Of a stretch of DNA of 64,000 bases, positions 2,944 to 62,838 are shown piece after piece. The notes under the pieces were generated by a model. The model was given only the letters and a program-made list of their open reading frames with translations. It ran no database searches and was not told where the DNA came from. The translations under genes and the position numbers were made by a program. The DNA is from Halichondria panicea (taxonomy: Eukaryota > Porifera > Demospongiae > Suberitida > Halichondriidae), in the NCBI RefSeq assembly GCF_963675165.1, contig NC_087381.1:6201378-6265377 (forward strand), given 5' to 3'. The stretch's first letter is position 1; each line of letters opens with the position of its first letter.

Positions 2944-3260
2944 CTTATAATTATGTTGGTGTAATTATATATAGGACTAGAGTGAGTCAAATAAATATTA
3001 CTGCCATGCATTTCTCGTAAGATTCTGACTATGGCTAGCTCACAAACTTTGTGCTGCTTGTTCCTATTGTCTGTGCTCCTACATATATCACTTGGAGCTG
3101 GTGATGAACTCACCCTGGACATCAGTAAGTGCAATGGTCTTGTGTCTAGAACGTTTACTCTAACTCAGTCCTGCAAACAAAACTGCTGTGAATAGAATTT
3201 ATTCCTATAGAATAAAATAAAATTCTAGCTAGGATATCATAATTGTGATTTCTCTTCCAG

Positions 3261-4774
3261 ATCCTCTTGCTCCAAACACCAGAGGAAGCAGATATTTGCT
3301 CTGGCCTTCATGAACAATGCTGCTCATAATTCAAATACCACACTACAGGAAATCGGAATTTTCATCACCACTGAACAAGTAAGCTCACGTTTCACCCTAG
3401 AGACACGATGGCCGGGAGTGGATGGAGCAGGATTCACTGAGACCTCTCCTGGATCTGGGTTATGGACTCGCACGGAAATCGCTCGACGAGGAGAATTCAC
3501 TTTCATCAATCTGCCGGCAGGACAGGGTACCCAAGGAGACATAGCCGTGCAAAACAATGGAGAAACCGATGAAGCTGAAAGACAAAAGGGACTGTTTATA
3601 ACAGCAGAGGATCCAAACGATGATCTCACTGTATATGTGCTCAATGATGAATCTACAACAACTGATGCGTACATGGCTATTAACTGTGTCGAATTTCCAA
3701 ATGCTAAAAGTTACAAGTACTTTATCTTTTCATCTGGTGTGTTTGGTGGAGAGTCATTTCAGAGTCGATTTCTTTTTACTCCTTGTGAAAATGGCACTAC
3801 TGTCAATGTACAAGCCTCCCCAACCCAAACCCATCCCGGTTGGGTGAACCCTAGTCCTTCAAACCCAAGTGCTCGAGTCGAATCAACTTATGGGAGGGCT
3901 TTCAATCGTTTTGACACTGTGATGATTAGCAATAATGTGGATCTTACTGGCTCTATCATCACTTCTAACAAGCCATTGGCTGTATTTTCTGGGCATCAAT
4001 GTGGAAATCCTACTGCTGTTGGAAGTTGTGACTATCTTATAGAACAATTGCCACCTCATCCAACATACGGTGACCTGTTTTTCATGGCTCCCTTTGCTGT
4101 CAGACAAAGCGGTGAACTGTACAGAATTGGCTCAGTATCTGCTGGAGCACAAGTAACAATCAATTGTGAGTGTGCAGCAAGTTCAGCTGATGGGAATAAT
4201 CGAGTTGGACTTGTTAGCGCTGGAAATGGTGCTTACACAGCCACATTAAGTGCAGGACAATACGCTGAGTGCCTAACACCTCAGAGTGCTCAGACCTATT
4301 GTTGTGTTACGTCCTCTCAACCCGTTACTATGGCTGGATATACACTCGGCCGTGATGCTGAACCGGTTTTAGGTCGCTCTGAACATTTTGATCCTTCCCT
4401 ATATTACATACCGGCAGCTAACTCCTATTTGAGCAGCTACAGCTTTACTTCAGCCAAGGATTTGACCACTCAGTTCAACGGATATCTGAGCTACATCTTG
4501 CCCACTCGCATTTTCAATAATACTGAAGCAGATCAACAGAGGTTTCGTATCAATGGAGAAACTAGAATTCCTGACCAATATGAAGCCATCAACTGTCGAG
4601 TGGATGGTACTGATCAGGTGTGTGCTTATGGAGCTACCAGCAGCATGGGCCGAGGAAATTTCAACCTTACTTATGACAACATTGAAGATGGAGCATTCTG
4701 GGGATTTGCATACGGCTTTTCTTTTAGAGCTTCATTTGCTTATCCTTTGCCCTTTGAAATGGAGCCAGTTGGAC
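3261..4774 (+). CDS. IgGFc-binding-domain exon, frameshifted copy
   Basis: One large exon encodes an IgGFc_binding-type N-terminal domain of the kind found in FCGBP-like proteins. Diagnostic features are the LQEIGIFITTEQ opening, GDIAVQNN, the SNKPLAVFSGHQCGNPT block and the CDYLIEQLPPHPTYGDLFFMAPF block. Reading from 3310 gives 498 codons. In the first 50 bases the exon reads AGCAGATATTTGCTCTGG where the paralog reads AGCAGATTTGCTCTGG; the 2-nt insertion separates the signal-peptide exon from the domain frame. An internal start at 3310 would make a protein without a signal peptide. Sequence identity with the copy at 43722-45239 is very high. Confidence 0.8.
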
Positions 4775-4831
4775 GTAAGTTTCCTGAAAATTATTATGAC
4801 ATTTAATTACTATTTCTCTTTGTTTATGCAG

Positions 4832-5272
4832 TGGCCTGGATTCGAGCAGTGGATCAAGTTGTAGTGGAATCTAGTGTAACAATGGTCGATCTCATGTTTA
4901 GTATCACCCGTGGTGATCGATCAGAGCGTAGTAGAGCATATGCTTCCCTTCAATCCCTCACAGCTGAAGAAGGTATTTAGTCCACTATTATGCAGTCCAG
5001 TCTAATATTACTTGTAATTTCTATATCCATGCATGCAGGTTCTGATTATACTGCTCCTCCACCACAAAGAAATGGTGGGCTTGATCAAAATGGCAACCTG
5101 CGATGGGGAAGAGATGGCGCCACACTCCCCAACGTTGCATATGAAGTCACTATTTTGAATGATGACATTCCAGAGCCAGTGGAAGTGGTGGAGGTGATGG
5201 TGCAGTGTGTTGCAACCGAGAACTGCTACCTGCCCACAACTCGGTACACCATAACCATTATTGATGATCAAG
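4832..5272 (+). CDS. Calx-beta domain exons
   Basis: Two exons (4832-4972 and 5039-5272), both phase 1-1, encode one Calx-beta-like domain. The first gives VVVESSVTMVDLMFSITRGD, the early strands. The second gives YEVTILNDDIPEPVEVVEV and ends in YTITIIDDQ; the two acidic pairs match the calcium-binding positions of the family. The nearly identical exons at 45296-45735 carry the same splice sites. In sponges Calx-beta domains are known from adhesion proteins, which makes adhesion or recognition plausible but not shown here. Confidence 0.75.
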
Positions 5273-5684
5273 GTGAGTGTGAAAATGCTATTGTTATCAA
5301 GTGGGTGACAGACTCATGCATGTGCAATTGCTGTAAATGCAAGAATGCAAACTCCCACGTCAAAGATAAATATTATAATAAATGATAATTAGTGCATGCT
5401 TGTCATGTGGAGAGTGGACAGTTTTGGTAGACTAGAAATGTTAACATAATTCAGTTGCTTTACAGGGTTTTCAGGTAGTGAGTCACTATAATTAATTATT
5501 AGGATCATCTAGCTCAAGGATGATGTACTCTCTTATAGCTTGGCAACAAATACCTTAGTGAAAGTGCACAGACTTACGAAGCTGGCATGCATGCATGCAT
5601 TCAGTTGCTTTCGTTCAATTATGGTTACATTATTATAGCATTGTGTGATACTGTATAATCATATTGCCCATGCATCCCGTACAG

Positions 5685-8600
5685 GTGCCTGTCTTGACCT
5701 ACCTGCTTTCTCGCTTGGTTCCATCTCATACGACTTTAGGATTTTCACAGAGATTAATGGTCGACCATACGGAACAGTTGCCACGTATGAGTGTGATGAT
5801 GAAACTTTATTAGGAGAAGCTACAAGGACTTGTGAGGTTGGAGTGTAGTCAGGAAGTGTACCAAACTGCGGGAGTAAGTAACCATTGTCAGTATTTTATA
5901 AATCAATCTGTAAACCACGTTACGGTACAAGTATGTCATACCACGTCACTATCAGACCGAATCTTAAGTAGGTGCGTAGGTGTAGTGGTTAATTAGTTAA
6001 AAATGATATCAGCATACACGCATGTGGTTTGTACCTCCAGCCCACTTATTCATGGCTAACAGTTTACACAACTACAAGTGTTAGTGACGGATTCACTCCG
6101 AGATGTAGAATGGAATGTGCGTGGGAGTCGAATACTCCTCTTCATACACTCCTGCTTATAATGATCTCCAACCTCGAAAAATTAGTGCCTCGAAAATCGG
6201 TATTGAACCCAGTATATTGAAACCTCTCTACTGTAGGGGTGTGAGCAAAAAAGTTTACTGTACATTCCTCTTCACTATAATTATAAATTATGTACTAGTT
6301 AATGCACGATTGCGTTCGCCGAGTGCTACATGATGCTTCGAGAACTTCCGCGAGGCCAATAATATCCATAGAGCACGAGCGTAAAACAGTGCATTAACTA
6401 GTTTGTATATAGTTTTTAGCTTCTTGCCAATACTAATACCTATCGGCTCTAGTATAGAGCTAACTACTAAGTAGAATAGCAACCTTCTATGAAAAAATTT
6501 TGCTATTCCTGATTCTGGAGAGACCGCAATAGCCTTCAACGTACTGTACTGGTAAGCAAAACTAGCCTTTACTCGAGAATAAAGCCTTTGTTAAGCATTG
6601 CTAGAAGCTTATAGAATCACTTATAGCTGTACTTGCATTGCAACCATGGAGCAGTTGTAGCTATTGTAAAATTCTATGGCTTAAAAATCAATTATTTTGA
6701 CCACCAACCGTGTTCTAACTACCCCAGCCGTGCTGAACTACCAAACTGTTCCAAAAATTCCAACCATGCACAGAATAATAGAGCAGTCTGCGGTTACTAT
6801 ACAGTTGTAGATCATAATATTATAGTCTATATGGCATTTGTTAGCATATTGATCTTTGTACAAAAAACTACATGGTTTGTTGTGACTATAATATGGTGCT
6901 TCATGGCACTAGTAATCAATGTTAATTTTGAGGCACAATAGTGTTACAGTTATCGGCTTGTTTTCACACTGTTAACCAACTTTACATCCTTTTAAAGTGG
7001 TGTCTGAATGTCTGACACTGGCACCTATTCCAAATGGAGCTATTACATATGATCCCGATATGACCGCTGCTTTTGAAGTGGATACAGTGGCTACTCATAG
7101 ATGTGATGATGGTTTCATTCTAGTGGTCGGATCTGAGACTCGAGTGTGTTTAAATACAGGGATATGGTCTGGCCTGATTCCTGTGTGCGGAGGTACATAT
7201 TATAGATTCGTTAAAGCAAATTATTTAATTATCTCTTATCATGTTTGTTTTTATGTCATGTCAAAAGTAAAATGTCAGTTAACACCGTTAACGAACCGCC
7301 TTTCCCCAATTCCTGGATCCGCCCCCGACGCCCACACTGTGTGCATGTAATCAAACCTATTGTTGCAATGCAATCGTTGTTCAAGCATATCTGCTCGTGT
7401 TAATTGCCCAATCGCTATTCTTATTATTTTTACAGCAAAGCTATGTCCAGAATTGCCAAGCTTTCCAAACGGAGCTATTACATATTTTCCTGATTTTATT
7501 CCTGATTTTAATGACGGAACAGTTGCTACATATAGATGTAATCCTGGTTTCTTTCTGGTCGGAATTGCAACTCGAACGTGTTCAACCTCAAGTACTTGGG
7601 CTGGCCAGCCTCCTGTGTGCCAACGTAAGATTCGTTTGTGATATAATTATAGGCTCTGTGGGGGAGCAAATACTTTTAGTGCATTCTTAAATCATTTGCA
7701 AACTATAATTGTTCATATTTTTATGTATCTGTGAGTGTGGACATGTACACACAGGGTGTGTAATCAAACGAACTGTTTGCAATCTTATAGCCGATCGTTG
7801 TTCATGCCGCTAGTATATATTCTTGCCACTGAACAATGTATGTATGTTATCAACTCATGTGCGCAGTATTTTGTATACATAGTTCTCCTTTACAGAGGTG
7901 GAATGTCCAGCACTAGAACCCATTTCAAACGGAGTTATTATATATACTCCGGATATAATGGCTGATTATGATATGGGAACATTGGCTTTATATAGTTGTG
8001 ATTTTGGTTTCATTCTGGTTGGATCTGAGAGTCGACTGTGTGTAAGTGGAGGGATATGGGCTGGCCAGCCTCCTGAGTGCCAATGTAAGATTGTGTGTAT
8101 TTTATCAGCTCGTCTTCGTTTATTATCCTTTATACAGCTGAATGTCCAGCACTGGCACCCATTCCAAACGGAGTTATTACATATGGTCCTGATATGACTG
8201 CCGATTTTAATGTGGATACAATAGCTACTCATAGCTGTGATGCTGGTTTTCGTTTGGCCGGATTTGAGACTCGAGTGTGTTTACCCTCAGGGACATGGTC
8301 TCGTCTGATTCCTATGTGCCTCGGTACGTAAGGTTTAATATAATTTATAGGCCCTAAGAAAGATTATGCTGATGCGCATGTTGAAATCATGTGACAACTC
8401 CATTCTAACTGTCATGCCGAAATTTATGAATTTGAGAATAACAGCTTAATGCATGTATTTAGCCGGGCCAAACTCGCATATAATGTTGTATGTTATCATT
8501 AACTTGCATGCTTTGCTCTGTGAGTGTGAACATGCAACACGCAGGTTGTGTGTAATCAAACCAACTGTTGCGATGTGCTAGCCGATCGACTCGTTATTCA

Positions 8601-9566
8601 TGCAGCTCTTTTCTTTCTACTGAACAATGTGTGTGTGTTATCAGCTTGTGACAATTTGTATACATATCCTTTACAGCGGTGGAATGTCCAGCACTGGCAC
8701 CCATTCCAAACGGAGTTATTACATATGGCCCTGATATGACTGCCGATTTTAATGTGGATACAATAGCTACTCATAGCTGTGATGCTGGTTTTCGTTTGGC
8801 CGGATTTGAGACTCGAGTGTGTTTACCCTCAGGGACATGGTCTCGTCCGATTCCTATGTGCCTCGGTACGTAAGGTTTAATTGTTATTATAATAATTTAT
8901 AGGCCCTAAGAAAGATTATGCTGATGCGCATGTTGAAATCATGTGACAACTCCATTCTAACTGTCATGCCAAAATTTATGAATTTGAGAATAACAGCTTA
9001 ATGCATGTATTTAGCCGGGCCAAACTCGCATATAATGTTGTATGTTATCATTAACTTGCATGCTTTGCACTGTGAGTGTGAACATGCACACGCAGGTTGT
9101 GTGTAATCAAACCAACTGTTGCGATGTGCCAGCCGATCGACTCGTTATTCATGCAGCTTTTTTCTTTCCACTGAACAATGTGTGTGTGTTATCAGCTTGT
9201 GACAATTTGTATACATATCCTTTACAGCGGTGGAATGTCCAGCACTGGCACCCATTCCAAACAGGTCCAGTATACGTAATTATTGGCACACTAGCTGTTT
9301 CCTTTGATTTCAGGGGTCAAAGTACAATTATAATGTAGGTCATTGGTGTTAGTAATTTAATTGCATGTTGTTCAACTCTTATACAGGTCCATGTGACAAT
9401 CTTCCACCGTTATTCAACGGAATGATCACCTACAATACTTCCCAAGGACTTCATAATACTGTTGCCATATACACTTGTAATGATGGGTTCACACTTCTTG
9501 GAAGTCACCTAAGAATCTGTGGGGAGGGAGTGTGGGAGGAAGCTAGCCCTTCATGCTTACAAGATG
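5685..9566 (+). CDS. Sushi (CCP) exon array, copy 1
   Basis: Seven full single-exon sushi domains (5685-5873, 6998-7192, 7436-7624, 7896-8084, 8138-8323, 8677-8865, 9387-9566) and one 36-bp stump at 9228-9263. Each shows the CCP pattern: a first Cys, PIPNGAITY, a TYxC or THxC step, GF.L.G...R.C, then W.G..P.C. All are phase 1-1, so each encodes one domain and can be skipped without frame change. The first exon has an in-frame TAG at 5846-5848 in place of the conserved Trp codon. The 8138 and 8677 exons are close duplicates; the stump at 9228 is a third unit cut off after the first 12 residues. Confidence 0.8.
8138..9263 (+). repeat. Tandem duplication of a sushi exon plus intron, about 0.55 kb units
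   Basis: Segments beginning at 8138, 8677 and 9228 share the sushi exon start. The first two also share downstream intron sequence, including GGCCCTAAGAAAGATTATGC, TGTCATGCC and AGCCGGGCCAAACTCGCATA. Offsets are about 542 and 551 bp. The third copy stops after CCCATTCCAAAC. Confidence 0.75.
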
Positions 9567-9693
9567 GTAAGGTGGTAAGGTGCACAATACTGTGTCAATG
9601 TCAACAACTCTACTGGTGTGCACACACCATTAATTCCATACACATGTAACCTTATAATTATTAAAAGAGAATTGAAAATTAACCGTATACTTA

Positions 9694-9910
9694 AGGGCAC
9701 TCCAAATGATACTCTGGTTTCTGGTCCACCCGCCCGCATCACATTTATTGTTGGATTTCTACATCCTACGCATGCGCAGCAGCACTGCAGCACAACATAA
9801 TGTGTTAATGCGATATTCATAAGGTGAAATAAACAAATAATGAATAATGACAAAAGCCTCCCGCGCGCATGGCGGACTAGAAACCAGAGTGACAATACTT
9901 GGAGTGGTCT
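9694..9910 (+). mobile_element. Small TIR element (MITE) in a receptor intron
   Basis: About 35-bp imperfect inverted ends: GGGCACTCCAAATGATACTC followed by TGGTTTCTGGTCC on the left, and the complement of GGACTAGAAACCAGAGTGAC..TTGGAGTGGTCT on the right. Length is about 217 bp, without an ORF. It lies in the intron between the last sushi exon and the Ig exon. Confidence 0.65.
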
Positions 9911-9959
9911 AAGTTGAATAATTTTGTAGAGGTATAATTCAATTAATGTTCTCCTATAG

Positions 9960-11282
9960 CTGCAGTGATAACTTCAAATGGTGCTCCAATGGTTGGACAG
10001 AGCTTCTCCTTATTATGCACTGTGACTGAGACTGACTCACTTCATCTCACCATTTCCTACTACTGGTTCAGAGGACAACTGCCACTTACTACTACTTTTG
10101 GTATTCTCACCTTTGACACATTGTTCCTGTCAGACGCTGGACTGTACAGATGTAAGGTCACTGTGAGCTCTGATGAGCACCAAATTACTGTTAACTCAAG
10201 CTATGACATTGATTTCAAGAGTAAGCAATTTTTAAAAGTCAGTAGCTATATAATTATAATAAGCTAGTTCCCTTTGATCGTTTAATAATGCCATTTAAAA
10301 CTATCACTGTGAATATTATAGTTATTTGGATAACTAGATCTTAATTTGTGAGTGTGACTGTCGAAGAGCAGTTATGACTTCCTTATATTTATTGTAGGTC
10401 TTCACATCCAGCTGCGACTCATTATCAGTTCTAATTGTGGAGCATACACTCAGTCAGAAACAGCTGTTAAAACCAGCGACATCACTAATGAATTTTCCCA
10501 CAGTGTCGATGAACTTTGTCAATGTGGTTTCAACACCTCTCTTATCTCAAGACCATTTATCCGCTGCTTTGAGAACTCTCCAAATCATGTGACATACAGA
10601 GCAGTTCTGAGCAGTAGTGAAACGATCTCGGCTCTCATGATTTTCTCCTTCATTGATCGATGGAGCAAAGAGACTCCCAGCATCATTGTGCAGAGTGCAG
10701 GACTTCGCATCAACAGTACTTGTCCGGTGATTATTGCCAATCCTGATGGTCCCGAATGCCCTGAGGATCTCACTAATCGCACGTTGATAATAACAATAAA
10801 CACAGATAATACTCCACTTTTGAGTGTTGATGTTGTGATTGGCATTGTGATTGGTTCATTGGCTCTTATACTTGCTCTATTGTTGGTCGTCATTTTGCTG
10901 GTTTTTCTGAGATATCGGAGATATAAATCAAAAACCTTGGGTATCAACGTGTGAGTTCATCAGTCTATATTATGATGTCATATACACCTATATTATGCAT
11001 GCATGCAGGAGGCCTGAAATTGTTCTGGATGAGCTTCCTCACCACGACTATGATTACATCAGCACATTCCAAGAGGCAAACTTGACTGGAAACCCTCAAC
11101 CCTCTACAGCAGGGGACGATACTTCTGAGATGAAGTTTGAATTAAAGCCCTGCGATGCTTATGGGCCTGGAAACCCTCAATTACCCTCTACAGCAGGGGA
11201 CAATGCTTCCGAGATGAAATTTGAATTAACACCCTGTGATGCTTATGGCCCTGTGACAGTCCCCACCCACGTTGACAGTTAA
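9960..11282 (+). CDS. Ig domain, juxtamembrane domain, TM helix and cytoplasmic tail exons
   Basis: Exon 9960-10220 encodes an Ig-like domain: FSLLCTVTETDS gives the first Cys, YYWFRGQ the core Trp, and DAGLYRCKVTV the D-x-G-x-Y-x-C motif. Exon 10398-10950 encodes about 130 residues of a juxtamembrane domain with four or more cysteines (possibly SEA-like, uncertain) and then the helix VVIGIVIGSLALILALLLVV with basic RYRRYKSK. Exon 11009-11282 is the tail: HHDYDYISTF, then two repeats of SEMKFEL.PCDAYGP, ending at TAA 11280-11282. Tail tyrosines (YDYI and two AYGP) could be phosphorylation sites; no textbook ITAM or ITIM is seen. The frame is intact in all three exons. Confidence 0.75.
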
Positions 11283-12168: not shown

Positions 12169-14784
12169 CTAAAAAAATTTCACAGTTTTTCTCCTTTTGA
12201 CAGTTTCTGATGGAGACACACCAACGTCAATGGTGGCCGTCTCATTACCATCTTCCACTGATTCAGAAGGCTTTTGCTTTCTGTTAGAGTGTTCCTTACG
12301 TTCAATATCAGAGGGTGTGGTTCCAGCATCGGAGGGTATGGTGGTGAAATCCATTGCTTTGCTAGTGGATGGATGAGCAGCACTTTGTTCACTCGTGTTT
12401 GAATTATCAGGAGGACGCTTGCGTTTTCTGAATGAGAGCTTTTTCAGAACAGGCTTCTTCTGAACAGTTTTTCTGAACAGAGCATTTGAAAATTGCTCAA
12501 TAGAGGGTGGGTCAATAAGTCCACATTCTGTAGCAGTCTTTGAAGCACCTCTTTTGGGAGCCAGTTTGCGTGTCCTTTGTCGACTCTTAGCTGGCGCTCT
12601 TGTAGCAGTGTCGACCATCGAACTGTCAATGCTTTGGGCAACTTCTTCTACTGTTTTAGAGGCCACACCTTTCTTTCGTACGTACGTTCGTTTTGCTCTC
12701 TTGGATTGTGGACTTTTTGGTTTCTCGGCATTTTTTCGTTTTCGATCACCACCAGTAGTACTTTGACCAGTAGCTGTTGGCCGTTTCTGTGGTTTTTCAG
12801 GTGTTTGATATTTCTGTGTTGGACAATAAGTATCGTGGATAAGTATGTCATAGGTAGCGTAGACTTGTAGCCGGTAATGGTAGTCACCCACGATAGCTGA
12901 ATTGATGATGTTTGCACTTTTCTTCACGGGAGGTATGGGAACCTGAGACAGTGCAAAATGACGTGAGATGAGGTCATCGTTATTCAGAGGAGTGATAATC
13001 GGTCCAGTATTTCTCCGGCGATAAGGACGCGGGAATTTACTATAGCATATGTGGTTAGGCTCGTACACAATCATGTGAGCATCAGCTTCCATTAAAACGT
13101 CTTTCTCAGTTGCTATTTGAACGGGGAGATCAAATCCGGCCATTTCAAAGACGAATTTTTCCAATTCCAATCTCTCGTCTGTTTCCGTTCTCGGAGTGAA
13201 TCGAAGAAATTCAGCTGCCAAAACTCGTTTAATTTCCGTACTGTTCCCCCTACCAGCAGAGTTGGAAATAACAGGAATGTTGGATACAATAGAATCTGTT
13301 GTACCACTAGGCAATATATTAGTATCAGCCAATGGTTCATTCACGCTGAAAATAGAAGAACTCGTAGTAGTAACCATGGTTACAGCATTTAGTTTCTTTT
13401 GATCTGGTAACTCGTCGTCGTCCAAACTATTATTTGATTCTTCAGTTCCACCGTCCCCAGCATTGCTAGCAGCTGTTGTTTCGAGTGATTGCTCTGAAAT
13501 TAGCGGACGCAATACAAAACGTGGTCCCACAGGGAAATTCCCTTCTCTTCTGGGGATGTGGGCATTATGCAAGTCACGTGACACGGTATCCAACGGTGCC
13601 GTGTTCCTGTTCGATTCAACATTATTAGGTACGGATCCAGATTCAGTATTTCTAGCAGCTGTTGTTTCGTGTGATTCTGAAATTAGCGGACGCAATACAA
13701 AACATGGTCCCACAGGGAAATTCCCTTTTCTTCTGGGGGTGTGGGCATTATGCAAGTCACGTGACACGGTATCCAACGGTGTCGTGTTCCTGTTTGATTC
13801 CACATTATTAGGAACGGATCCAGATTCAGTATTGCCAGCAGCTGTTGTTTCGTGTGATTCTGAAATGATTGGACGCAATACGAAACGTAGTCCCACAGGG
13901 AAATTCTCTTCTCCTTTTATAGTGTTCGTAGAATCTGATTTCGTCCCCCCAATACTTGGTAAACATGCAATCTTTCCGTTCCCATCCCGAGTGCCAATGT
14001 CTGTAGGGGTTCTTGGATTAGACCCATTGGGCAAGTCACATGACACGGTATCATTTATCATCAATGGTGTCGTATCAGAGTTTCTGGTATATTGTTCAGT
14101 GTTCACGTGTGATTCCACATTATGAGGAATGGATCTAGTTTCTGTCCGAGTGGCCACTTCAGCTGGGGGTATATGAAAGGATCTCGGTAGTGGCTTGAGG
14201 ACGGGGTCAGAGGTCAAGGGGGCATGGTCACCAGATGCTGGACCATGCTGAGGCTTAACAATGTTGACTACAACATTCGTATCCATGGCGTTGGTCGTTC
14301 CCATAGCAACAGTGTGGTTCCCGGCTGTAACATTAGAGCTTGTATTATCATCATCATCATCTTGAGTGAGATCAATTATTGATTCAGGAGTAGATTGCGA
14401 TCCCGATTGTTCCCCTCCGTTCAGGGGGGCACCAACATTAGCCGACGTTGTGCCCCCTCTTAGATTAGAGAGAATATTCTGTACAGTTCCATCTATCGCT
14501 TGGTCGTTGGTTGGACAACTGGTCGACGATTGTCCTTCCTCGTTACGAGAATTGTGTAGCGGTTGAGAGCTAAACATTGTTGATGATCCGTTCTTAAGAG
14601 CGGCCGAATATCGTCGAAAATTATACGACGGTGGAACCTGGAGATCAGAATTGTCCCAGGAGATAATCCTGTCAGGACTTGGATAAGAGTCGGAATTGAT
14701 GATGGAGGATTTACGTTTGTCTCGTGTAGTGTAGCGATATTTAAACTTCTTGACTTTCTCTTTCACAACCTCAGGGAGATCAGT
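12169..14784 (-). CDS. SNAPC4-like last exon: long disordered basic tail with a 61-residue triple repeat
   Basis: About 870 codons, rich in Ser, Thr, Asn and charged residues, with basic clusters (RKRKNAEKPKSPQSKRAKRT, KLSFRKRKRPPD, ending KRRKTVKFF) likely to be nuclear-localisation or DNA-contact regions. An acidic stretch TQDDDDDN follows SIIDL and looks like a SUMO-interacting motif (inference). A block FPVG..FVLRP.ISE occurs three times with an exact 183-nt period (GGACGC on the plus strand at 13505, 13688, 13871). The segment around SRHFALSQVPIPPVKKSANI to YDILIHDTYCP is the only part that looks folded. It is spliced to a (GT)n-rich acceptor at 14785. Confidence 0.75.
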   Translation of the reverse strand, partial: TDLPEVVKEKVKKFKYRYTTRDKRKSSIINSDSYPSPDRIISWDNSDLQVPPSYNFRRYSAALKNGSSTMFSSQPLHNSRNEEGQSSTSCPTNDQAIDGTVQNILSNLRGGTTSANVGAPLNGGEQSGSQSTPESIIDLTQDDDDDNTSSNVTAGNHTVAMGTTNAMDTNVVVNIVKPQHGPASGDHAPLTSDPVLKPLPRSFHIPPAEVATRTETRSIPHNVESHVNTEQYTRNSDTTPLMINDTVSCDLPNGSNPRTPTDIGTRDGNGKIACLPSIGGTKSDSTNTIKGEENFPVGLRFVLRPIISESHETTAAGNTESGSVPNNVESNRNTTPLDTVSRDLHNAHTPRRKGNFPVGPCFVLRPLISESHETTAARNTESGSVPNNVESNRNTAPLDTVSRDLHNAHIPRREGNFPVGPRFVLRPLISEQSLETTAASNAGDGGTEESNNSLDDDELPDQKKLNAVTMVTTTSSSIFSVNEPLADTNILPSGTTDSIVSNIPVISNSAGRGNSTEIKRVLAAEFLRFTPRTETDERLELEKFVFEMAGFDLPVQIATEKDVLMEADAHMIVYEPNHICYSKFPRPYRRRNTGPIITPLNNDDLISRHFALSQVPIPPVKKSANIINSAIVGDYHYRLQVYATYDILIHDTYCPTQKYQTPEKPQKRPTATGQSTTGGDRKRKNAEKPKSPQSKRAKRTYVRKKGVASKTVEEVAQSIDSSMVDTATRAPAKSRQRTRKLAPKRGASKTATECGLIDPPSIEQFSNALFRKTVQKKPVLKKLSFRKRKRPPDNSNTSEQSAAHPSTSKAMDFTTIPSDAGTTPSDIERKEHSNRKQKPSESVEDGNETATIDVGVSPSETVKRRKTVKFF

Positions 14785-48052: not shown

Positions 48053-48093
<41 letters not shown>

Positions 48094-52624: not shown

Positions 52625-55600
52625 GTAAGTGGTTTGAGGAAGTTGAAATATATCTGTTAGACAACTGCTGCTGCAGCATGACTACTTCTATACAGCCAAC
52701 GTTTTCTAAAAAATTATATTTTAGTTACTTTTGTATGGTGTAAATTTTCATGTATTTCATATTAAAGAGAATCATACGAAAATTAAGTTATTCTACCGCA
52801 ATGGATTCAACATCACTATCCTGAGCTGTACGAATATTAAAAATACGAATGGATAGTCATAAAACCAACGTTGATATACGGTATACTGTATAGCGGGTAT
52901 ATTTTGAGGGTATAAACTTTCGCGGAATGACCTTAAGAAAGGTTTTTACGGAATAACAGCCTTTCTGCAATGCATGCATGCATGCATGCATGCATGCACA
53001 TGCGATAGTAAATTCGTGGGTATAAATGTCCGCGGTTAATTCTTGATCAGCGAAAACCACGAAAATGTTTATACCCTCGAAATATAATTATTATATCCGC
53101 TATATGGCAGTTAGAGCTAGCTGAATTCCTCATTAGCATTCGCAAAGCTTGATAATGGTGTTGGATATTCACAAAACATTGTAGTAATACAATAATATTT
53201 TTTGTCTGCAAAAGAACACATTACAGTTTAGTATTTGAGGTATAAGATAAGATGCCATGGTCAGACACCGAAAGCACCACAACCACTGAAACCTTGTAAC
53301 GTGTGGGAATAGGTTACTGTATAAATTGTGTACTTTAGTAGAGCATCAACTTTGAACTGAGCTACACATGTACAGCACAAAGATGGGCTCCAATGTGAAG
53401 ATTATCGGTATCTCAGTGGCAGCATTTGTGCTACTGACAATCACACTATACGGAAGTCTATCCTTTGCTGTGTGGAATCTACATACCCAAAGTGCGAGTC
53501 TAAAGTCTGATAATCAAAGTCTAAAAGAGAACCAAATCATTGAATTACAAAATCTAAAGACTGAAATGCAAAGTCTAAAATCTGCAAATGAGAACCTACA
53601 TAACAAAATCTCTGAATTGCGAGGTTTTGTTCAAGCTATAAATCCAAACCCTCACTCGAGTGATGAAGCCACGGTGATGGACACACTAAAGCGACTAACT
53701 CGACAATCCGGCTCCTCTCAAAGTGCTACTGATCTACTTGCTGATGCTCTGGCAGAACTAATTGAAAAGAAACTCTACACTATAATGGACTGTGCTAGAG
53801 ATGACGCTGATAATTTAACCGACTGTTCGCTCAAGCCAGGCCCAAAGGGGGACAAGGGATGCCTGGGTGATCAAGGTAAAGAAGGCCCTCAGGGAATGAA
53901 CGGAGAACCTGGGGTCAAAGGACACATCGGTTACCCTGGTCATAAAGGGGAGGTGGGTCCAAAGGGTCCTAGCGGCAATCCCGGTCCAACGGGGCACCGA
54001 GGGGTTAAAGGAGATATGGGCGAGATCGGTCAACGAGGTGAGGCGGGGGTTAAAGGTGACGAAGGTATGAAAGGAGAATATGGTTTCCCTGGACACAAAG
54101 GCGAGAGTGGCGGGCCAGGTGCCAAGGGGATTAAAGGAGATCGAGGCTTTGGAGGCAATAATGGACAAAAGGGAGAGAAAGGAATAACGGGGGAACAAGG
54201 TCCACCAGGACCTATTCCCACCACACAACCACCAACTACTAGAGCGGTGACTACACAACCACCAACTGTTCCCTCTGAGAGGTGTAGTGGTCCTGGATGG
54301 AGGAAGGTGGCATCTCTTGATATGACTAATACTAGCCAAAACTGCCCTCAAGGACTAACACTGACTGGCTACTCAAAACGATCATGTGGTCGAACACATA
54401 CAAATTATTATGCTTGTTCATCAGTCACCTTTCCTGTTAGTGGGGGTCAATACAGTCGAGTGTGTGGGAGAGCAAAGGCTTATCACTATGGGTACCTGTA
54501 TTCCTTTCTTGGGTATAACCGTGACTCACGTGGTATCAATGCACAGTACGTTGATGGACTAAGCTTCACTCATGGAACACCCAGGACACACATTTGGACA
54601 TTTGCAGCTGGTTATTATCAAGGAATCAGTGGTGATACTAGCAATAATTGTCCTTGTAACACTGGTAACACCGACGGCTCCCCTCCTTTTGTTGGTAATG
54701 ACTATTTCTGTGAGAGTGGCGTAAGCTCTTTTTCTGCACGTGGAGGTAACATATTTTACCCTGATGATCCACTCTGGGATGGTCAGGGGTGTATCCATGG
54801 CAACCCATGCTGTCAATTGAACACCCCACCGTGGTTCAACCAAACACTACCAACCCCCACAACTGATGATATTGAAATGAGACTATGCTTGCTTCAAACA
54901 GATCCTTGGGGTAACATTGCTCTTGAACAAATGGAACTATACGTCTACTGATGAACTAGAAACACTGAACATTGATCTGACTCTGTGAATTATCCTAGAT
55001 GTAAATATTGTAACAGATATTAGTTTTGTGAGCAAAAAACCTTGAGGGTATAAAGATCGTGGTGTCATACAAGTACCAGTAGTATTGGCAATCTTACTTT
55101 TGCGAACCATTAACATTAATTTGCTAATTTTATTTGATGTTGTAATATTTACGGTAATAATTGTTCACCTGTAGTAACAGAGGTTATCTGATGCTTGACC
55201 CCGGTAGCGCTGTCCATCACCCACACCTCCCCCCGACACACACACACCCGAGGAGCTGAGGGGTCAAAGGGCAAAGCTTGTAGTCCAGTTCCCCGGGAAA
55301 GGAACTCAGCCACACCCACTTCCTGTACAGGGGAAGGGGTTAGAACAGTATTACCATAATCACAGTTAACCAATAACGAGCTTTCAAAGGTAGCTACCAG
55401 AATGGCTGAATTGTATGATCACACTTGCACAGGGAGCACCTACAATGCAGAATACCAATATATCATTATGTATGTATGTACCGTATAGCAGGTATATTTT
55501 GAGGGTATAAAAAAATGCCTTTAGAAAGGTTTTCGCGGATTTAATTTTCGTGGAATAGCGTATTTTTACAGCATGCATGCATAGTCGCGGTACATGCCTA

Positions 55601-58600
55601 ATCCGTGAAAATCACGAACCTTTATACCCTCGAAATATACCCGCTATACAGTATACAGTACTCATACGTAACGACACTGTATACAACCCTTTTTACCTCA
55701 CTTGAAATGCTTACATTATTAGAGAAAACATAAGTCAACCTAGCTACAGTGCACACAGTGGGATCACACTATAGGCTCTGTACACTAGCTACAGTGCACA
55801 CAGTGGGACCACACTATAGGCTCTGTACACTAGCTACAGTGTGCACAGTGGGATCACACTATAGGCTCTGTACACTAGCTACAGTGCGCACAGTGGGACC
55901 ATGCACACTATAGGCTCTGTACACTAGCTACAGTGCGCACAGTGGGACCACACTATAGGCTCTGTACACTAGCTACAGTGTACACAGTGGGACCACACTA
56001 TAGGCTCTGTGCACTAGCTACAGTGCACACAGTGGGACCACACTATATAGGCTCTGTAAACTAGCTACAGTGCACACAGTGGGACCACACTATAGGCTCT
56101 GTACACTAGCTACAGTGCACACAGTGGGACCACACTATAGGCTCTGTACACTAGCTACAGTGCACAGTGGGACCACACTATAGGCTCTGTACCTAGCTAC
56201 AGTGCACACGGTGGGACCACACTATAGGCTCTGTACACTAGCTACAGTGTACACGGTGGGACCACACTATAGGCTCTGTACACTAGCTACAGTGCACAGT
56301 GGGACCACACTATAGGCTCTGTACACTAGCTACAGTGCACACAGTGGGACCACACTATATAGGCTCTGTACACTAGTCTACATAATAGTTAGACACTGTT
56401 TAGGAAGTTTCTACATGATTTAGAAGCCCAAAGGGCTGGTTGTAGTATCCCGAACGCAGTGAGGGTTCTACTAGCCCTGAGGACTTCTAAATCATGTGGA
56501 AACTTCCTAAACAGTGTCTAAGCATTTTAGATCATAGCAACCATGAGTATTTAGCCAATCAGATTTGAATGTTCTTATCTAATCTTTGCTACATGATTTT
56601 CTAAGTGAAGTACATGATTTTCTATTGAAGTACATGATTTTCTAAATTGGATAGAACATTTCCTCTAACCAATCAGATTGCAGTATTTATGACAAACATG
56701 ATCTAAACACCGCAAGTCAATATTAAAATAGCATCTCTGCTTCTTTCTTGCCTTTCAAGTGAGGTGAAAGGTTGCAGCCATGCAGCACCATAGTACACTG
56801 TACTATAAGGAGACTCACTGATTGCCTGTTCAGGACCAGACACTGAGGTCCATGCACTAGGAGGAGATCACATGATGACAAGTAGTCATACTGTGTGAGG
56901 CCACTACCCGTGGACCGCATCCGTTCCCGTAGCAACTGCTCGGACCTGAGAACAATTCGATTCAGTATTCAAAATGTACAACTATACCAGCACAGCATAG
57001 AAGATCAAATGCTATAATGTCATGTGATACGTTACAGTGCATAGTTATACAGGACTAAGATATGTCTGGTAGACCTAATTCCACATCTTATAATGTAGCT
57101 AGATAGACAATTAATAGATCTGTACTGTAAGCACTAGCCATTAAGCAGGCACGGAGGAATATATTGTAATGCAATATACATCAGACATAGCCTCATCCCG
57201 GGCTGATTTTTTTTTTAAGTTGAAAAATACTAGCTAGAGACAACAAGGCTGGGAACGAGGCTACCTCAGTTAGTGCTATATCAATACAACTACAAATAAA
57301 TTGTCTTTTCATTGATGTCTTTATATAAAGGGTATACCAAATAGGCTGACTTTTTGAAAAGAATAATACACTATGGCAGGCACATTGATAAAATCAGTGA
57401 AAGTAGTTATTTTCGGTAAACCAAGTATATACTACAATATGCTGAATGTCATCACCTTCTTTCGTCTTTGGCTGCCACCAGTAGCCAGTGTAGCAATCAA
57501 ATTCCTCTTATATGATAAAGGAGGGTGCTCCAGCTGACCTCTGGCCGGGCCCCAGGCTTGTCTGCAAAAATAGAAAATAAGTTGTGACATAAATTATTAC
57601 TATAATTATAGCGGGTTATTTTCGGGGGGGGGGGAATCAGTTTGTGGATCTTATTTTCATGGTTGCTACTTGCACTGCAGGTAAAAGTAGTCTAAGGTCG
57701 CTTCATTCATGGTCCAGTATTCAACCACACAAATGATAAGACATCAAATGCACCACAACATAACTTAGAAACCCCAGAGATAAGATATTAAATAAGAGGT
57801 CACCATATAAATTGACTTCAGTATAGAGTATCAACTTTGAACTGATTTACGCATGTACAACAAATAATGGATTCAAATGTGAAGATTATCGGTATCTCAG
57901 TGGCAGCCTTTGTGCTACTGACAATCACACTATACGGAGGTCTATCCTTTGCTGTGTGGAATCTGCATAGCCAAAGCGTGAGTTTAAAGGATGAAAATCT
58001 GAACCAAAACTCTGAATTGCGAAGTTTAAAAGAGAACCAAATCACTGAATTGCGATGTCTAAAATCTGAGAATGCAAACCTACAGAACCAAATCACTAAG
58101 CTGCAAGATATTGTCGGAGCTAATCCAAACCCTCACTCGAGTGATGAAACCACGGTGATGGACACACTAAAGCGACTAACTCGACAATCTGGCTCCTCTC
58201 AAAGTGCTACTGATCTACTTGCTGATGCTCTGGCAGAACTAATTGAAAAGAAACTCTACACTATAATGGACTGTGCTAGAGATGACGCTGATAATTTAAT
58301 CGACTGTTCGCTCAAGCCAGGCCCAAAGGGGGACAAGGGATGCCTGGGTGATCAAGGTAAAAAAAGGCCCTCAAGGAATGAACGGAGAGCCTGGGGTCAT
58401 AGGACTCAGTTTTTTGCTGTATTGAAATGAATCTCTCTGCCTTCCTATAGGGACTCTCATCAAATATGACAACTCAAGTGTCCAATCAGATTGCCAACAT
58501 CACATCCAAACCTCAAAATCTGACTGCAAGTCAACTCACCTTGGTTACTGCAATAGTAGAGCAAGTAGCAGTAGAAGCTGCTGTCAACCAAGAGGTGAAC

Positions 58601-60471
58601 ATTGTTACTTACCAATGAGTTATGACTCTATCACATGTCCAGGTGAGGGACAACTATCTTCAAACAATCAACAATATTCAGCAAGCCGATGTTGACGTCA
58701 TCTATGAGAGCCAGCTAGCAATGAATTCATCAACAAGGTATGTTGCAAGTATAATTATTGTCACTGTGGGTTGTTTCTTCATGTAAGCCTCACAAAAGGC
58801 CAGTGCTAACTCCCGCTACGTATTTTGTGATAGGCCTTTTCTTATCCAATTTGTTTGCTGTTTTCCTTTTCCCTGCATGTATGTGTTTAGTTGAAACCCA
58901 TGATCTTTGCCAAAGTTGATGTTTACCCTCCCGGTATAGGATTCTTGCAAGCCTCGAAACATTTCTGGACAATCTCAATACTTCAACTGTTTCCAGAAAC
59001 TCCACAAGCATGCAATCAGACTGTTTTAAGTTTTGAAACATTTGCTATGACAGTGCAAGATTTAGACCCTGACAGTTTCCAGGGCCAGACATTTGTTGTT
59101 GATTTAGGCCCTGTCGAAGAGGCAGTGAACAATACTGGCGTTATTGACCAAGATGCTCTGATGACGGCTAATGATTACACAGCTGATAACAGATCAGATA
59201 TTGATTCCCTTAGTGAAGACACCGAAAACTCAACAGCCTCTCTACGCTTAAGCCCTTTGATTCTTAAAGAATGCCCTACAACAAACCGTTCACTTCGGCA
59301 AAGATTAAGTTACTCTGTTTTTTTGTCTGATGTGCTTTTCCTTCCTGAGAACAGAAGTACTAATCAGGTGTGATCTATTGTGGTGGCTGCAAGACTAGCT
59401 TGTCTGCAGACCAACAAGACAGTGCTCTCAGTACCAGTACGGACAAGCTTTCTGATCAGGATGACGGTATGAGCAATTTAAAAATATGTAAGTAAGTTCT
59501 TTGTGATTTGTCTGCAGAATAATATTGAAAACAGTAGCTGTGCTCTGTATAAGACTCAAGGTAAGTGCCCGGACTTTGCAGCTTTAACAAGCTCACTATA
59601 CCTTTCATTTTTTCTATCTTTACTATTTCAGATCAGTTTGGAGCTTGGGACACTGCTGGATGTAAAGAGATAACCAGTTCCAATGGGAGAAAAGATTGCG
59701 AATGCAGACAATTGGGCCACTTTGGAATACTCTTTGTAAGAAATATATACACTACAACATTTTGATCTCCTCACGATTACAGGATTTGAATCCAACGTCA
59801 TTACCTGAAAATCTTGCAATTGCTTTGAGCACCATCACATACATTGGCCTGAGCTTGTCTGTAGTGTGTCTTCTGGTGTTTATATTCACCATTTTTATCA
59901 GCAAGTAAGTAGCAACCTGCCCAGTTTGTTCGGCGTTTCTATTCTCTTTCGTAGGAAACTCCTCGCTGATAAACAAAACCAGATTCTCATCAACATGAGT
60001 ATTTCACTGATGTTTCTGTACTTCACCTTCCTCATTGGAGGGTTCACTGTTGGTGTCCCACCTCTCTGTGGGCTCATGTCTGCCCTCCTGCAGTACTTCT
60101 TCCTAGTGTTTTTTTCCTGGATGGCTGTAGAAGCTGTCTGGCTCTACCTCAAACTGGTAGTGATAATGGGATCTCAGTCCCTCACCTCCAAGTTCATGCT
60201 GAAGGCTGGAATTCCAGCTTGGTGTAAGCAATCGTTAATAATGCTTATCTTGAGAGATTGCTTGTGTACTCAGAGTTGATATAGTACATTCAGTTTTGTT
60301 GCTATAATTATGTTTTTGAGGGTGCTTTTATATTATACTCCACATGCAGTACTGCCCTTTATGATTGTTGTCATCAGTGCTGGGGTGGGCTACCAATACT
60401 ACAGCAACCTATACTAGTAAGTACCTACAGTTATGCCTCGGTGCGCATGCGCAATTAAGCGGGGTATACGG

Positions 60472-60514
<43 letters not shown>

Positions 60515-62838
60515 GAAGGGGGTGTAGTAAGTACAAGGCTAACTGGGTTAGATGAAACTGCACCCGCTGAAACGTACCATTTTGACTCAAACGGAATGCA
60601 TATTAATTAATTTTTATGAAGGACATTCAATAGACAGTTTATATTTTTCCGGTATTCAGAGGAGCACCAAACCCGTCATTGCCAGTCTACAAGTTTTGGT
60701 ATCATTAATCTCCTGACTTGTGAATAGCTCAAGGAAAGGCGGGACCACTCCCATACATGCAAAGTCCGAGTGTCACTGTCAAACCATAGACTCAATGGTT
60801 AAACACCACAAAACATGCTGTTGAAAAGCAAGCTAAAAAAAATTTGATTTTGTATTTTGTTTAGGAAGTACAACTATATTAATTTAGACAGGCAAAATGT
60901 AACCTTTTAGTGATTCAAATAGAATAGATCTAGATTTAGCAGTGGCGTAGCCAGAGGGGTGCAGAGGGTGCTCCAGCACCCCCCCTCTGGCCTTAGACTC
61001 TGCTCCATAAGTTCATTTTACTAACTAGCTAGCTAGCTGATATGAGATACCGTATTCACCCAAATTACCGGGACACAAAAAAATAATTACGGCTTGCAGT
61101 GTCTCTTGGAATAGAGCAAGAAAAATTACGTTAAAGTCGAAGTGTCCCTTGTATTAGGGTGTCCCGTATAGTAATTAGAACGAATATTTCCCCATGGTAT
61201 ATGTACACGGCCTCGATTCCAGGCGGAGGCTAGCTCTGCAGCTAAAATGTATTTCGTGCAGTTTAGAAGCTGTGTAGTTCTTTTACCTATAGTTCCCTTA
61301 GAAACCTACTGCTCCTGACCAATATAGGAGAGCCCAATTCTACTTGCTGCATCACTACTGCTGACTTTTTCCCTTAGGCGCCAGTTCCCTTGCCTACCCC
61401 CCTCTTGCTGATTGTGTCTAGGAGCTTTCCACTAAGCAACGCGCAGCCCCTCCCCTTCTGGTCACGCTCCCGCATTGTGCATGCTCTTTTTCATTCTAAT
61501 TAGATCAGGACGTCTACATTTCCGTCCGAAGTGTCCCTTAGAATGGAGTGTCCCGGTAATTCGGGTGAATACGGTAAATATAGAGCTCTCTTGCACGATC
61601 AACTCAAAACTCCACCTCCAACTAGCTAGCTCCACCTCCAAATATTCATTCCAGGCATTCCAGTCAGTGCACATGTGCAAAGCAACGTGGCTGAGCAGAC
61701 CGAGCAGACCACCACACCGAGGTCCCCCACAGAGTTGCATACTGTTCAGCAGCTATCACCATCATCATCATATGTCACTCTTTCAGTTGAGCCCAGTTCA
61801 CAGAGCAGCACTGCAACTGCAAGTGGCTTGTCACCCTGTCCTGCTAATTCACAAGCAGAACCTGGTTAGCAGCTGCATGATTTAATTGTCACAACTCAAA
61901 ACAATGCATTTTATAGGATATCTTCAAATGAAGATGTGGCTTAACCACCAGCACCCTCAAAGCAGCAGTACCCTCATTTCTTTAGCTAGATTGCGTTAGA
62001 ATCAATCTCAGAACATGTAACAACAAACATTTTCTGGGGGAGTGTCCCCAGACCCCCCCCCCCATTGGAGCCACATTTTGCACTGCCAGTGCGCTCTGCG
62101 CACGTAATTCGGACAATCCATTCATCCAGCACCCCCTCTCTCAAATCCTGGCTATACGCCCCTGTTTAGGGTGATCTTTATATTAGTCCGCAAAATACTG
62201 AATGCGGATGCAGGTGCATGCAAAGTTCTGTGTAGTTAATATACCAATGTACATTTTTATGAATAGGGCATGTAATATATATACGGTATTTAGTACCAAC
62301 ATCGATCACATACACACATCATTATTCATTCAGCTGTCATCCTACTGAATGGCCTTTCTATTATGGATTCATTCTTCCTTTTGTCATCATCTACGTATTC
62401 AACTGGTCCGTATTTGTTGCCATCATGGTGTCCATTTGCAAGCATTATAGAAACCTGCAGTCACTAAACGAGAGCTCCGTACTTCAACAGTTGAGGAATG
62501 TTAAGAAGAACTTGGTCATTGCAATGTGTCTATCAGTTGTACTTGGCCTGGGTTGGGGCCTTGGACTAGTATCAACAAGCTCTGGTCTTGTGGAGCTGTC
62601 ATTCACATTCCAAGTGATATTCTCGATCTTTGTGGGTTCTCAAGGTGTGCTAATTTTTATTATATATGGTCTTCGAAGCACTAACTTCCGCCAGACATGG
62701 ATAAAACTCTTTAGTGGCTGTAGATCAAACACTGATAACTTTGTGTCTTCTGAGAAAGGAAATACTAATCCACGAGATAATTCTAGCACTGTCAGAGTGG
62801 AGTTATCGAGCATGAACACATTACCAAGCAAACAGTAA
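52392..62838 (+). CDS. Adhesion GPCR (HRM-GAIN-GPS-7TM), with two apparent lesions
   Basis: Exons: 52392-52624, 58451-58594, 58643-58737, 58940-59466, 59518-59560, 59632-59735, 59783-59904, 59955-60223, 60350-60416, 62334-62838 (stop TAA 62836-62838). The first exon is a hormone-receptor-like cysteine module, then a GAIN domain, GPS and a complete class B2-like 7TM bundle with a short tail. Phases match throughout except exon 58940-59466, which is one base long and also has TGA at 59371-59373 where glycine would fit. So either this allele is inactive, or there are two assembly errors. The intron 52625-58450 hosts other genes. The entry phase (1) equals the exit phase of the upstream sushi exons. 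Adhesion GPCRs signal from cell-cell or cell-matrix contact through the tethered agonist after the GPS. Confidence 0.72.
52875..53107. mobile_element. MITE of the CGTATAGCRGGTA family
   Basis: Ends TACTGTATAGCGGGTATATT with TTGAGGGTATAAA and the inverse TTTATACCCTCGAAATATA..TATCCGCTATATGGCA. About 233 bp with a (TGCA)n core. Located in the adhesion GPCR intron. Confidence 0.65.
53383..54951 (+). CDS. Type II transmembrane collagen-like protein with Cys-rich C-terminal domain (single exon)
   Basis: An uninterrupted frame from 53368 to TGA 54949-54951. The start is set at the second ATG (53383, MGSNVKIIGI) because the paralog at 57867 conserves that start but has a stop between the two ATGs. 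Domains: signal-anchor helix (ISVAAFVLLTITLYGSLSFA), a coiled coil (SLKSDNQSLKENQIIELQNL), a helical region, an unbroken run of about 40 Gly-X-Y triplets (53839-54208), a Thr/Pro linker, and a C-terminal domain of about 220 residues with many Cys (CPCNTG, CIHGNPCCQLNTPPWF, DDIEMRLC). That last domain is not one I can name. Likely a trimeric cell-surface protein facing outside. It lies inside the adhesion GPCR intron on the same strand and has no introns itself. Confidence 0.85.
   Translation: MGSNVKIIGISVAAFVLLTITLYGSLSFAVWNLHTQSASLKSDNQSLKENQIIELQNLKTEMQSLKSANENLHNKISELRGFVQAINPNPHSSDEATVMDTLKRLTRQSGSSQSATDLLADALAELIEKKLYTIMDCARDDADNLTDCSLKPGPKGDKGCLGDQGKEGPQGMNGEPGVKGHIGYPGHKGEVGPKGPSGNPGPTGHRGVKGDMGEIGQRGEAGVKGDEGMKGEYGFPGHKGESGGPGAKGIKGDRGFGGNNGQKGEKGITGEQGPPGPIPTTQPPTTRAVTTQPPTVPSERCSGPGWRKVASLDMTNTSQNCPQGLTLTGYSKRSCGRTHTNYYACSSVTFPVSGGQYSRVCGRAKAYHYGYLYSFLGYNRDSRGINAQYVDGLSFTHGTPRTHIWTFAAGYYQGISGDTSNNCPCNTGNTDGSPPFVGNDYFCESGVSSFSARGGNIFYPDDPLWDGQGCIHGNPCCQLNTPPWFNQTLPTPTTDDIEMRLCLLQTDPWGNIALEQMELYVY
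55482..55655. mobile_element. MITE of the CGTATAGCRGGTA family
   Basis: Ends TACCGTATAGCAGGTATATT with TTGAGGGTATAAA and the inverse TTTATACCCTCGAAATATAC then CCGCTATACAGTA. About 174 bp, closely related to 52875-53107. Confidence 0.65.
55741..56374 (+). repeat. 45-bp tandem array, 14 copies
   Basis: The unit is CTAGCTACAGTGCACACAGT then GGGACCACACTATAGGCTCT and GTACA. Fourteen GGCTCTGT instances were counted, with small variants (GTGCACAGTG, ATGCACACTATAGG, one CTATATAGG). Non-coding minisatellite. Confidence 0.9.
56390..56700 (-). repeat. Foldback hairpin plus flank, reverse copy of 39120-39470
   Basis: 56390-56520 is the same AGACACTGTTTAGGAAGTTT foldback as 39342-39470 in opposite orientation. 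Homology continues to about 56700 (ACATGATTTTCTAAGTGAAG, AATCAGATTGCAGTATTTAT). Confidence 0.7.
57867..58430 (+). pseudogene. Decayed copy of the transmembrane collagen gene
   Basis: MDSNVKIIGISVAAFVLLTI opens a frame nearly identical to the gene at 53383 through the helix, coiled coil and CSLKPGPKGDKGCLGDQG. A run of A's has an extra base (GGTAAAAAAAGGCCC versus GGTAAAGAAGGCCC), which shifts the frame. Homology ends near 58410, and the GAIN exon of the adhesion GPCR starts at 58451. The collagen run and C-terminal domain are absent, so it is a truncated duplicate. Confidence 0.8.
58451..59735 (+). CDS. GAIN and GPS exons
   Basis: 58451-58594 and 58643-58737 encode amphipathic helices (LTASQLTLVTAIVEQVAVEA) of GAIN subdomain A. 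58940-59466 begins ILASLETFLDNLNTST, must shift one base before AMTVQDLDPDSFQGQTFVVD, and continues to RLSYSVFLSDVLF; TGA 59371-59373 follows STNQV and the same frame resumes as SIVVAARLACLQTNKTVLSV. 59518-59560 and 59632-59735 give the GPS: CALYKTQ, FGAWDTAGC, CECRQLGHFGILF. The canonical cleavage tripeptide H-L-T is Q-L-G here, so self-cleavage is unlikely. Confidence 0.7.
59783..62838 (+). CDS. Seven-transmembrane exons
   Basis: TM1 is in 59783-59904 (ITYIGLSLSVVCLLVFIFTI). TM2-TM3 are in 59955-60223 (INMSISLMFLYFTFLIGGFT; CGLMSALLQYFFLVFFSWMA with EAVWLYLKLV). TM4 is in 60350-60416 (LPFMIVVISAGVGYQYYSNL). TM5-TM7 are in 62334-62838 (CHPTEWPFYYGFILPFVIIY; LVIAMCLSVVLGLGWGLGLV; VIFSIFVGSQGVLIFIIYGL). 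The Cys before TM3 and the Cys of CHPTEW would form the conserved disulfide. All phases agree and no stop is present, so this part is intact. Confidence 0.85.
60940..62164. mobile_element. hAT-like TIR element in the last adhesion GPCR intron
   Basis: Left end CAGTGGCGTAGCCAGAGGGG; right end ATCCTGGCTATACGCCCCTG, inverse of the left with mismatches. TTTAG flanks both sides. CAGxGGCGTAGCC ends are known for hAT-type non-autonomous elements (inference). It contains a second element at 61048-61576. Confidence 0.6.
61048..61576. mobile_element. 529-bp TIR element nested in the hAT-like element
   Basis: Ends TACCGTATTCACCCAAATTA with CCGGGACAC, and GTGTCCCGGTAATTCGGGTG with AATACGGTA: a 29-bp near-perfect inverted repeat. 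No transposase; short ORFs inside are not supported. Confidence 0.75.

Follow-up and report, generated by a model that had tools for sequence, protein, structure and literature searches.

A 64,000-nt stretch of the genome of the sponge Halichondria panicea (C5:6201378-6265377, hereafter the window; the genome comprises 131 Mb in 39 contigs) carries two sets of exons that encode an IgGFc-binding domain behind a signal peptide, namely gene A (3031-11282) and gene B (43234-62838), the latter possibly two genes. Both appear to be members of a tandemly expanded H. panicea family with a common front, which consists of a signal peptide, an IgGFc-binding domain, a Calx-beta-like module, sushi domains and often Calx-beta repeats, on exons bounded by phase-1 introns. 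The best explanation, and one that we regard as probable, is that these front exons have been shuffled onto different outputs. Through duplication and exon shuffling, probably along with gene conversion, the front would have been coupled to varied C-terminal modules: HRM, GAIN and GPS domains with a seven-transmembrane part (7TM), a TIG domain with a transmembrane segment (TM) and a tyrosine kinase, a TM with a tail, an Ig-like domain with TM and tail, a VWD end, or none. The explanation builds on domain architectures, exon phases, lesions and the scatter of outputs on a tree of the fronts, all read from sequence; the family would be of recent origin. In what follows, P1-P12 denote paralog loci compared with the window (P2, C5:5988101-6018100; P12, C5:4275101-4286691, minus strand) and P0001-P0046 denote database protein models. 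Pfam cut-offs, in bits, were 25.6 for IgGFc_binding (PF17517), 26.2 for HRM, 27 for Calx-beta (PF03160), 22.5 for GPS, 22.9 for VWD and 26 for V-set.

The combination of IgGFc-binding, Calx-beta, sushi, HRM, GPS and 7TM parts is present in the predicted products of LOC135335851 and P12, so that the combination of a sensor of this kind with an adhesion G-protein-coupled receptor (GPCR), which an earlier sequence-only reading had proposed for the window and had met in no described receptor, does occur in this genome. At P12, 24 exons with GT at all 23 donors and AG at all 23 acceptors give a stop-free reading of 1980 aa, the front of which was picked by an exon-chaining script with preset start and end and then trimmed by hand. 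Its Pfam matches lie above the cut-offs for IgGFc_binding (122.1 bits), Calx-beta (107.1), 7tm_2 (103.4), Sushi (41.5) and GPS (29.2), and below it for HRM (22.5); the 7tm_2 match spans positions 3-250 of the 250-position profile. The model P0001 (LOC135335851 isoform X2, matching locus P10) scores 197.5 bits for Calx-beta, 118 for IgGFc_binding, 72.4 for Sushi, 31.5 for HRM, 28.2 for GPS and 51.8 for 7tm_2, the last covering only profile positions 3-134 of 250, so that its seven-helix part is incomplete. In the genome, by contrast, the P10 exons keep an open frame as far as the stop. GAIN was assigned by eye from position and sequence, no GAIN Pfam family being among the matches. The gap between sushi and HRM exons measures 58 bp in P12 and less than 90 bp in P8 and P10, which leaves little space for a gene boundary in these three loci.

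The database models LOC135335851, LOC135332039, LOC135335889, LOC135335845, LOC135335846 and LOC135335916 (the last being P0035, at locus P1) are all H. panicea models labelled 'uncharacterized protein'; they were predicted independently of the present analysis, and four of them matched loci P10, P5, P7 and P1 exon by exon. The query built from gene B for the database search held one sushi piece that gene B could not splice in that way. In a word-limited search in which 7993 candidates were scored, the sensor region of P0001 had 13 matches, five from H. panicea and eight to unnamed or hypothetical/RHS-type proteins of other origin. For the IgGFc exon, no relative of solved structure was found by sequence at E 0.01, and a structure prediction was set aside (mean predicted local distance difference test score of 41.8).

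Across the family, 13 full-length IgGFc fronts, 70-100% identical to the IgGFc exon of gene B, lead into a variety of ends. The 7TM output is found at P8, P10 and P12, and also in gene B, where it is damaged and perhaps unlinked; the Ig-TM-tail output is found in gene A and P4. VWD ends were assigned to P5 and P7 via models P0003 and P0004, which pass the cut-off narrowly (24.8 and 23.4 bits), and to P3 solely from a matching C-terminal domain. A TIG-TM-tyrosine kinase end is carried by P0006, placed at C2:7396031 by inference, and a TM-tail end by P0005, likewise placed by inference at C5:6626133, the TM segments of both being called by eye. The P1 model has no membrane part, and for the IgGFc front of P2 no output was identified. 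Two more distant fronts on C1, P0040 and P0043, also end in kinases. The proposal of one sensor with several outputs thus holds for the family at large and extends to tyrosine-kinase, TM-tail, VWD and apparently secreted ends beyond those proposed. The two window genes from which it was drawn are themselves weak testimony for it. A genome-wide count, which took in 121 of 122 IgGFc matches and 150 of 164 7TM matches, is suggestive only: of 111 merged 7TM groups, 20 are preceded by IgGFc at a distance of up to 18 kb in the same orientation, compared with 12 groups that have it downstream on the same strand, owing to tandem arrays, and two that have it on the opposite strand.

Fronts and outputs were compared on a tree of 15 IgGFc exons, in which the gene B tip was set as 7TM and the P2 tip as without known output. 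Nearest neighbours with different outputs include P7 (VWD) and P10 (7TM), with a support of 90, P8 (7TM) and P0005 (TM-tail), with 95, and gene B and P1, with 84. Ten changes of output label are needed on the tree, compared with a mean of 9.98 and a minimum of 6 for shuffled labels, and nine when P2 is left out (shuffled mean 8.94, minimum 5). Setting gene B as secreted gave 10 changes against 10.43, and setting P2 as secreted too gave nine against 10.09. Over five variants of labels and tips (gene B and P2 relabelled as secreted, uncertain tips removed, the C1 outgroup removed), 24-100% of the shuffles were at or under the observed count. Outputs are therefore scattered to about the degree of shuffled labels, and the front gives no visible prediction of its output. 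The IgGFc exon itself is constrained, as its ratio of nonsynonymous to synonymous substitution rates is 0.20-0.76 in every one of the 55 pairs that 11 genomic copies form.

The scatter is compatible with moving outputs and with homogenised fronts alike. That gene conversion homogenises IgGFc exons among fixed receptor types, with no swapping of outputs, is a serious possibility that falls somewhat short of an even chance; the clustering of the copies on C5 and the 97% identity between the IgGFc exons of P7 and P10 speak for it, whereas P0044, P0045 and P0046, adhesion GPCR and kinase relatives that have the same types of output or repeats without IgGFc, point to gain or loss of the module. Several observations also weigh against the shuffled family as a whole, besides the incomplete 7tm_2 match of P0001. 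The database models are themselves predictions, and P0002, which represents P12 in the database, differs at the N-terminus (PF21672) and is without IgGFc. At P8 the phases of the signal-peptide and IgGFc exons disagree when the conserved donor is used, and the signal-peptide exon of P4 is broken. An IgGFc paralog lies no more than 25 kb upstream in only five of the 11 close HRM loci on C5, and in one of these five a signal-peptide exon of its own intervenes. Finally, 15 tips give low power against a weak link between front and output.

Shuffling of front exons onto outputs remains our preferred explanation. In the window, the exons of gene A are as follows.

3031-3124, plus strand: signal-peptide exon, phase 0 to 1.
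3261-4774, plus strand: IgGFc-binding exon, from the conserved acceptor (128.0 bits); the open model made by script begins at 3233.
4832-5272, plus strand: Calx-beta-like module in two exons, 4832-4972 and 5039-5272.
5685-9566, plus strand: sushi exons, the final one (9387-9566) ending at a GTAAGG donor in phase 1.
9960-10220, plus strand: Ig-like exon, CTATAG|CT to A|GTAAGC, phase 1 to 1.
10398-11282, plus strand: membrane-proximal/TM exon (10398-10950) and cytoplasmic tail exon (11009-11282).

The last sushi donor joins the Ig-like exon (9566|9960) in matching phase, as the continuation into Ig, TM and tail exons had been read; the Ig domain itself stays under all Pfam cut-offs, the best match being V-set with 20.3 bits. 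A copy of the TM and tail part with 93% identity lies at C5:6455845. The IgGFc exon has two extra nucleotides about 33 nt in, and the first sushi exon (from 5685) has an in-frame TGA when read in phase 1.

The corresponding features of gene B are listed below.

38125-38214, plus strand: additional signal-peptide exon copy, a candidate alternative first exon.
43234-43327, plus strand: signal-peptide exon.
43722-45239, plus strand: IgGFc-binding exon (119.8 bits).
45296-45735, plus strand: Calx-beta-like module in two exons, 45296-45436 and 45502-45735.
46565-48279, plus strand: first sushi block, exons 46565-46756, 47160-47351, 47676-47864 and 48094-48279.
49099-51558, plus strand: second sushi array of nearly identical 863-bp units.
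52392-52624, plus strand: HRM exon, phase 1 to 0, donor GTAAGT (20.4 bits).
58451-58737, plus strand: GAIN exons 58451-58594 and 58643-58737, entered in phase 0.
58940-59436, plus strand: main GAIN exon, 497 nt, with an insertion near 59008 and a TGA at 59371-59373.
59518-59735, plus strand: GPS exons 59518-59560 and 59632-59735, with the motif CECRQLGHFGILF.
59783-62838, plus strand: 7TM exons 59783-59904, 59955-60223, 60350-60416 and 62334-62838.

The IgGFc exons of the two genes are 90% identical in protein, both score far above the IgGFc_binding cut-off, and their undamaged front modules are phase 1-1 exons, so that the fronts are indeed close paralogs with shared splice sites, except that both genes bear lesions. 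Of the names given to the front, IgGFc-binding stands, and identification of the module after it as Calx-beta is only weakly supported. At 45296-45735 no Pfam match was obtained up to E 5; profile comparison with true Calx-beta repeats (hhalign) gave E 2.2e-4 with a probability of 45%, and for the counterpart of this module in the relative P0040 Calx-beta scores 19.9 bits, under the cut-off. True Calx-beta arrays are present in other paralogs. The extra signal-peptide exon at 38125-38214 precedes gene B by 5 kb. At paralog P1, too, there are two exons of this kind, and the database model opens with the far one.

The continuation of gene B into an adhesion GPCR was borne out at the junctions and not in the reading frame. 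The donor GTACGT of the last sushi exon (51367-51558) fits the phase-1 acceptor of the HRM exon (51558|52392), and the HRM exon exits and the GAIN exon enters in phase 0 (52624|58451). The HRM domain is weak, since it stays below the cut-off that seven paralog loci pass with 28.3-31.3 bits. The 10 exons from HRM to the stop are open and of equal lengths in all three of P2, P8 and P10, and open in P12 as well; they are closed in gene B. Compared with the 493 nt of P2, P8 and P10, an insertion of 4 bp lengthens its main GAIN exon (the exon of P12, at 502 nt, stays in frame), and with TGA at 59371-59373 it reads GTG TGA where these three read GTG GGA, so that no open frame leads through GAIN into 7TM. 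Further upstream, the frame is lost in the sushi exons 49099-49289 (191 nt) and 49598-49791 (194 nt), which hit stops when read in phase 1. Other lesions in the window could be rescued by alternative acceptors or by skipping of symmetric exons; the main GAIN exon is asymmetric (phases 2 to 0) and therefore cannot be rescued by skipping. The GPCR part of gene B is thus most likely a decaying copy, as judged from its sequence. That gene B is instead a single intact and functional receptor, its GAIN lesions being assembly errors, a minor haplotype or spliced around, seems improbable to us: the inner splice sites are preserved from HRM through the last exon, but the GAIN exon has two distinct lesions that cannot be skipped, and more are found in the two sushi exons and in gene A.

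Decay apart, the IgGFc and 7TM parts need not share a transcript in the window, because exon 48094-48279 is of the last-exon type of the apparently secreted P1. The P1 model P0035 (916 aa) finishes at the equivalent sushi exon, positions 47900-48589 match the P1 locus at 90%, and the exon, when read unspliced, continues as MCKGEE followed by a stop (48288-48290). We somewhat favour the view that the IgGFc gene ends here, with an apparently secreted product, and that 49099-51558 with the HRM and 7TM exons forms a separate, headless and broken adhesion GPCR gene. P2, the nearest paralog for most of gene B's GPCR exons but not for the last, agrees with this: its adhesion GPCR is headed by a signal-peptide exon of its own (C5:5999977-6000069), and no IgGFc intervenes. 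The frame losses in the second sushi array, where two exons are affected, and in the GAIN exon with its TGA agree with it as well. On the other side, exon 48094-48279 also has a usable phase-1 donor (GTGAGG). The sequence-only reading had itself named a GPCR that starts with its own signal-peptide exon as a finding that would speak against its proposal; this is true of P2 and may hold in the window, yet a search between 48279 and 52392 found no signal-peptide exon of the family type.

Whichever way gene B is divided, the GPS of the family is unusual. The motif CECRQLGHFGILF is found in all four database GPCRs checked, and P2, P8, P10, P12 and the window have QLG in place of the autoproteolysis site H-x-S/T. 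The abstract of PMC13062082 defines this site, and its title refers to cleavage-resistance among adhesion GPCRs, so QLG does not disqualify these proteins as such. Since the site is lacking, the adhesion GPCR form is most likely uncleaved, with the tethered stretch GHFGILF retained, and it would probably signal via this tethered sequence. Judging by its domain types, the most likely ligand of the front is a surface or matrix molecule, of microbes or of other sponge cells, and the attached module would set the outcome, be it signalling through G proteins, phosphorylation of tyrosines, some other membrane output or secretion. Elsewhere in the genome, C4:3598900-3604800 holds a compact series of IgGFc, EGF-like, GAIN, GPS and 7TM parts with a canonical HLT site (IgGFc and 7TM by Pfam, the others by eye from open frames).

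The HRM-GAIN-GPS-7TM output is shared with adhesion GPCRs (family B2) and with the G6-like H. panicea models P0044 and P0045. The sponge family differs from them by IgGFc-binding and sushi domains in the front, by QLG instead of H-x-S/T, and by the occurrence of the same kind of front on kinases and single-pass proteins. Calx-beta repeats are carried by ADGRV1. PMC12716839 names Calx-beta among adhesion GPCR domains. According to PMC4302439, HRM is present in eight or more adhesion GPCRs of Amphimedon; its main text mentions neither IgGFc, Calx nor sushi. Our literature search found no paper with both 'IgGFc' and 'adhesion GPCR', and PMC8242945 (Schmittmann et al. 2021), on H. panicea, was the sole paper found to link IgGFc with sponge receptors, the other six results beside it being on other organisms by their titles. 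The legend of its Figure 1 lists IgGFc-binding, Calx-beta, Sushi, GAIN, HormR, GPS and 7TM among the domains of receptor models in the transcriptome, and the accessible text gives no account of common fronts or exchange of outputs.

Near-identical ectodomains with differing signalling ends occur in the paired immune receptors KIR and LILR and in plant RLK/RLP pairs. Those systems choose between a kinase, inhibitory or activating tyrosine-based motifs (ITIM/ITAM) or none, whereas the sponge family would choose between 7TM, kinase, single-pass and apparently secreted ends. A bolder version, which we put forward tentatively, is that these are germline combinatorial receptors, in which exchange of phase-1 exons couples a conserved IgGFc-led sensor freely to GPCR, kinase, single-pass or secreted ends. 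If so, one ligand class could trigger different pathways, and combinations would turn over faster than the sensor. The family would bear on how sponges sort microbial and self signals; according to PMC8242945 a canonical Toll-like receptor was not found in H. panicea. With similar sensors on G-protein, tyrosine-kinase and secreted ends, one could ask directly if sensor or output sets specificity, and the outputs of animal receptors would be seen in the course of being exchanged by exon shuffling.

Other features were noted in the window. At its start (458-1404, plus strand) lies the end of an upstream gene with an ADAM10-type cysteine-rich domain (40 bits; cut-off 28), a TM and a tail like that of gene A. 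Among the IgGFc paralogs listed, none lies in the roughly 185 kb upstream of it, and the tail was dropped as a candidate IgGFc output because no listed copy falls between C5:6016507 and gene A. An open frame of 908 aa at 12172-14895 (minus strand) had no Pfam match at E 0.01, and a long open reading frame (ORF) at 29258-31636 (plus strand) matches a Roc GTPase domain (29.6 bits) as well as ankyrin repeats. Inside the HRM-GAIN intron of gene B lie an intronless membrane-collagen-like ORF at 53356-54948 (plus strand; Collagen 67.8 bits), outside the receptor, and a truncated copy of it at 57846-58427 (plus strand). Tandem repeats spaced some 45 nt apart occupy 55675-56397, and 39214-39470 and 56391-56647 form an inverted repeat of 257 nt, 99% complementary, with its arms 17 kb apart.

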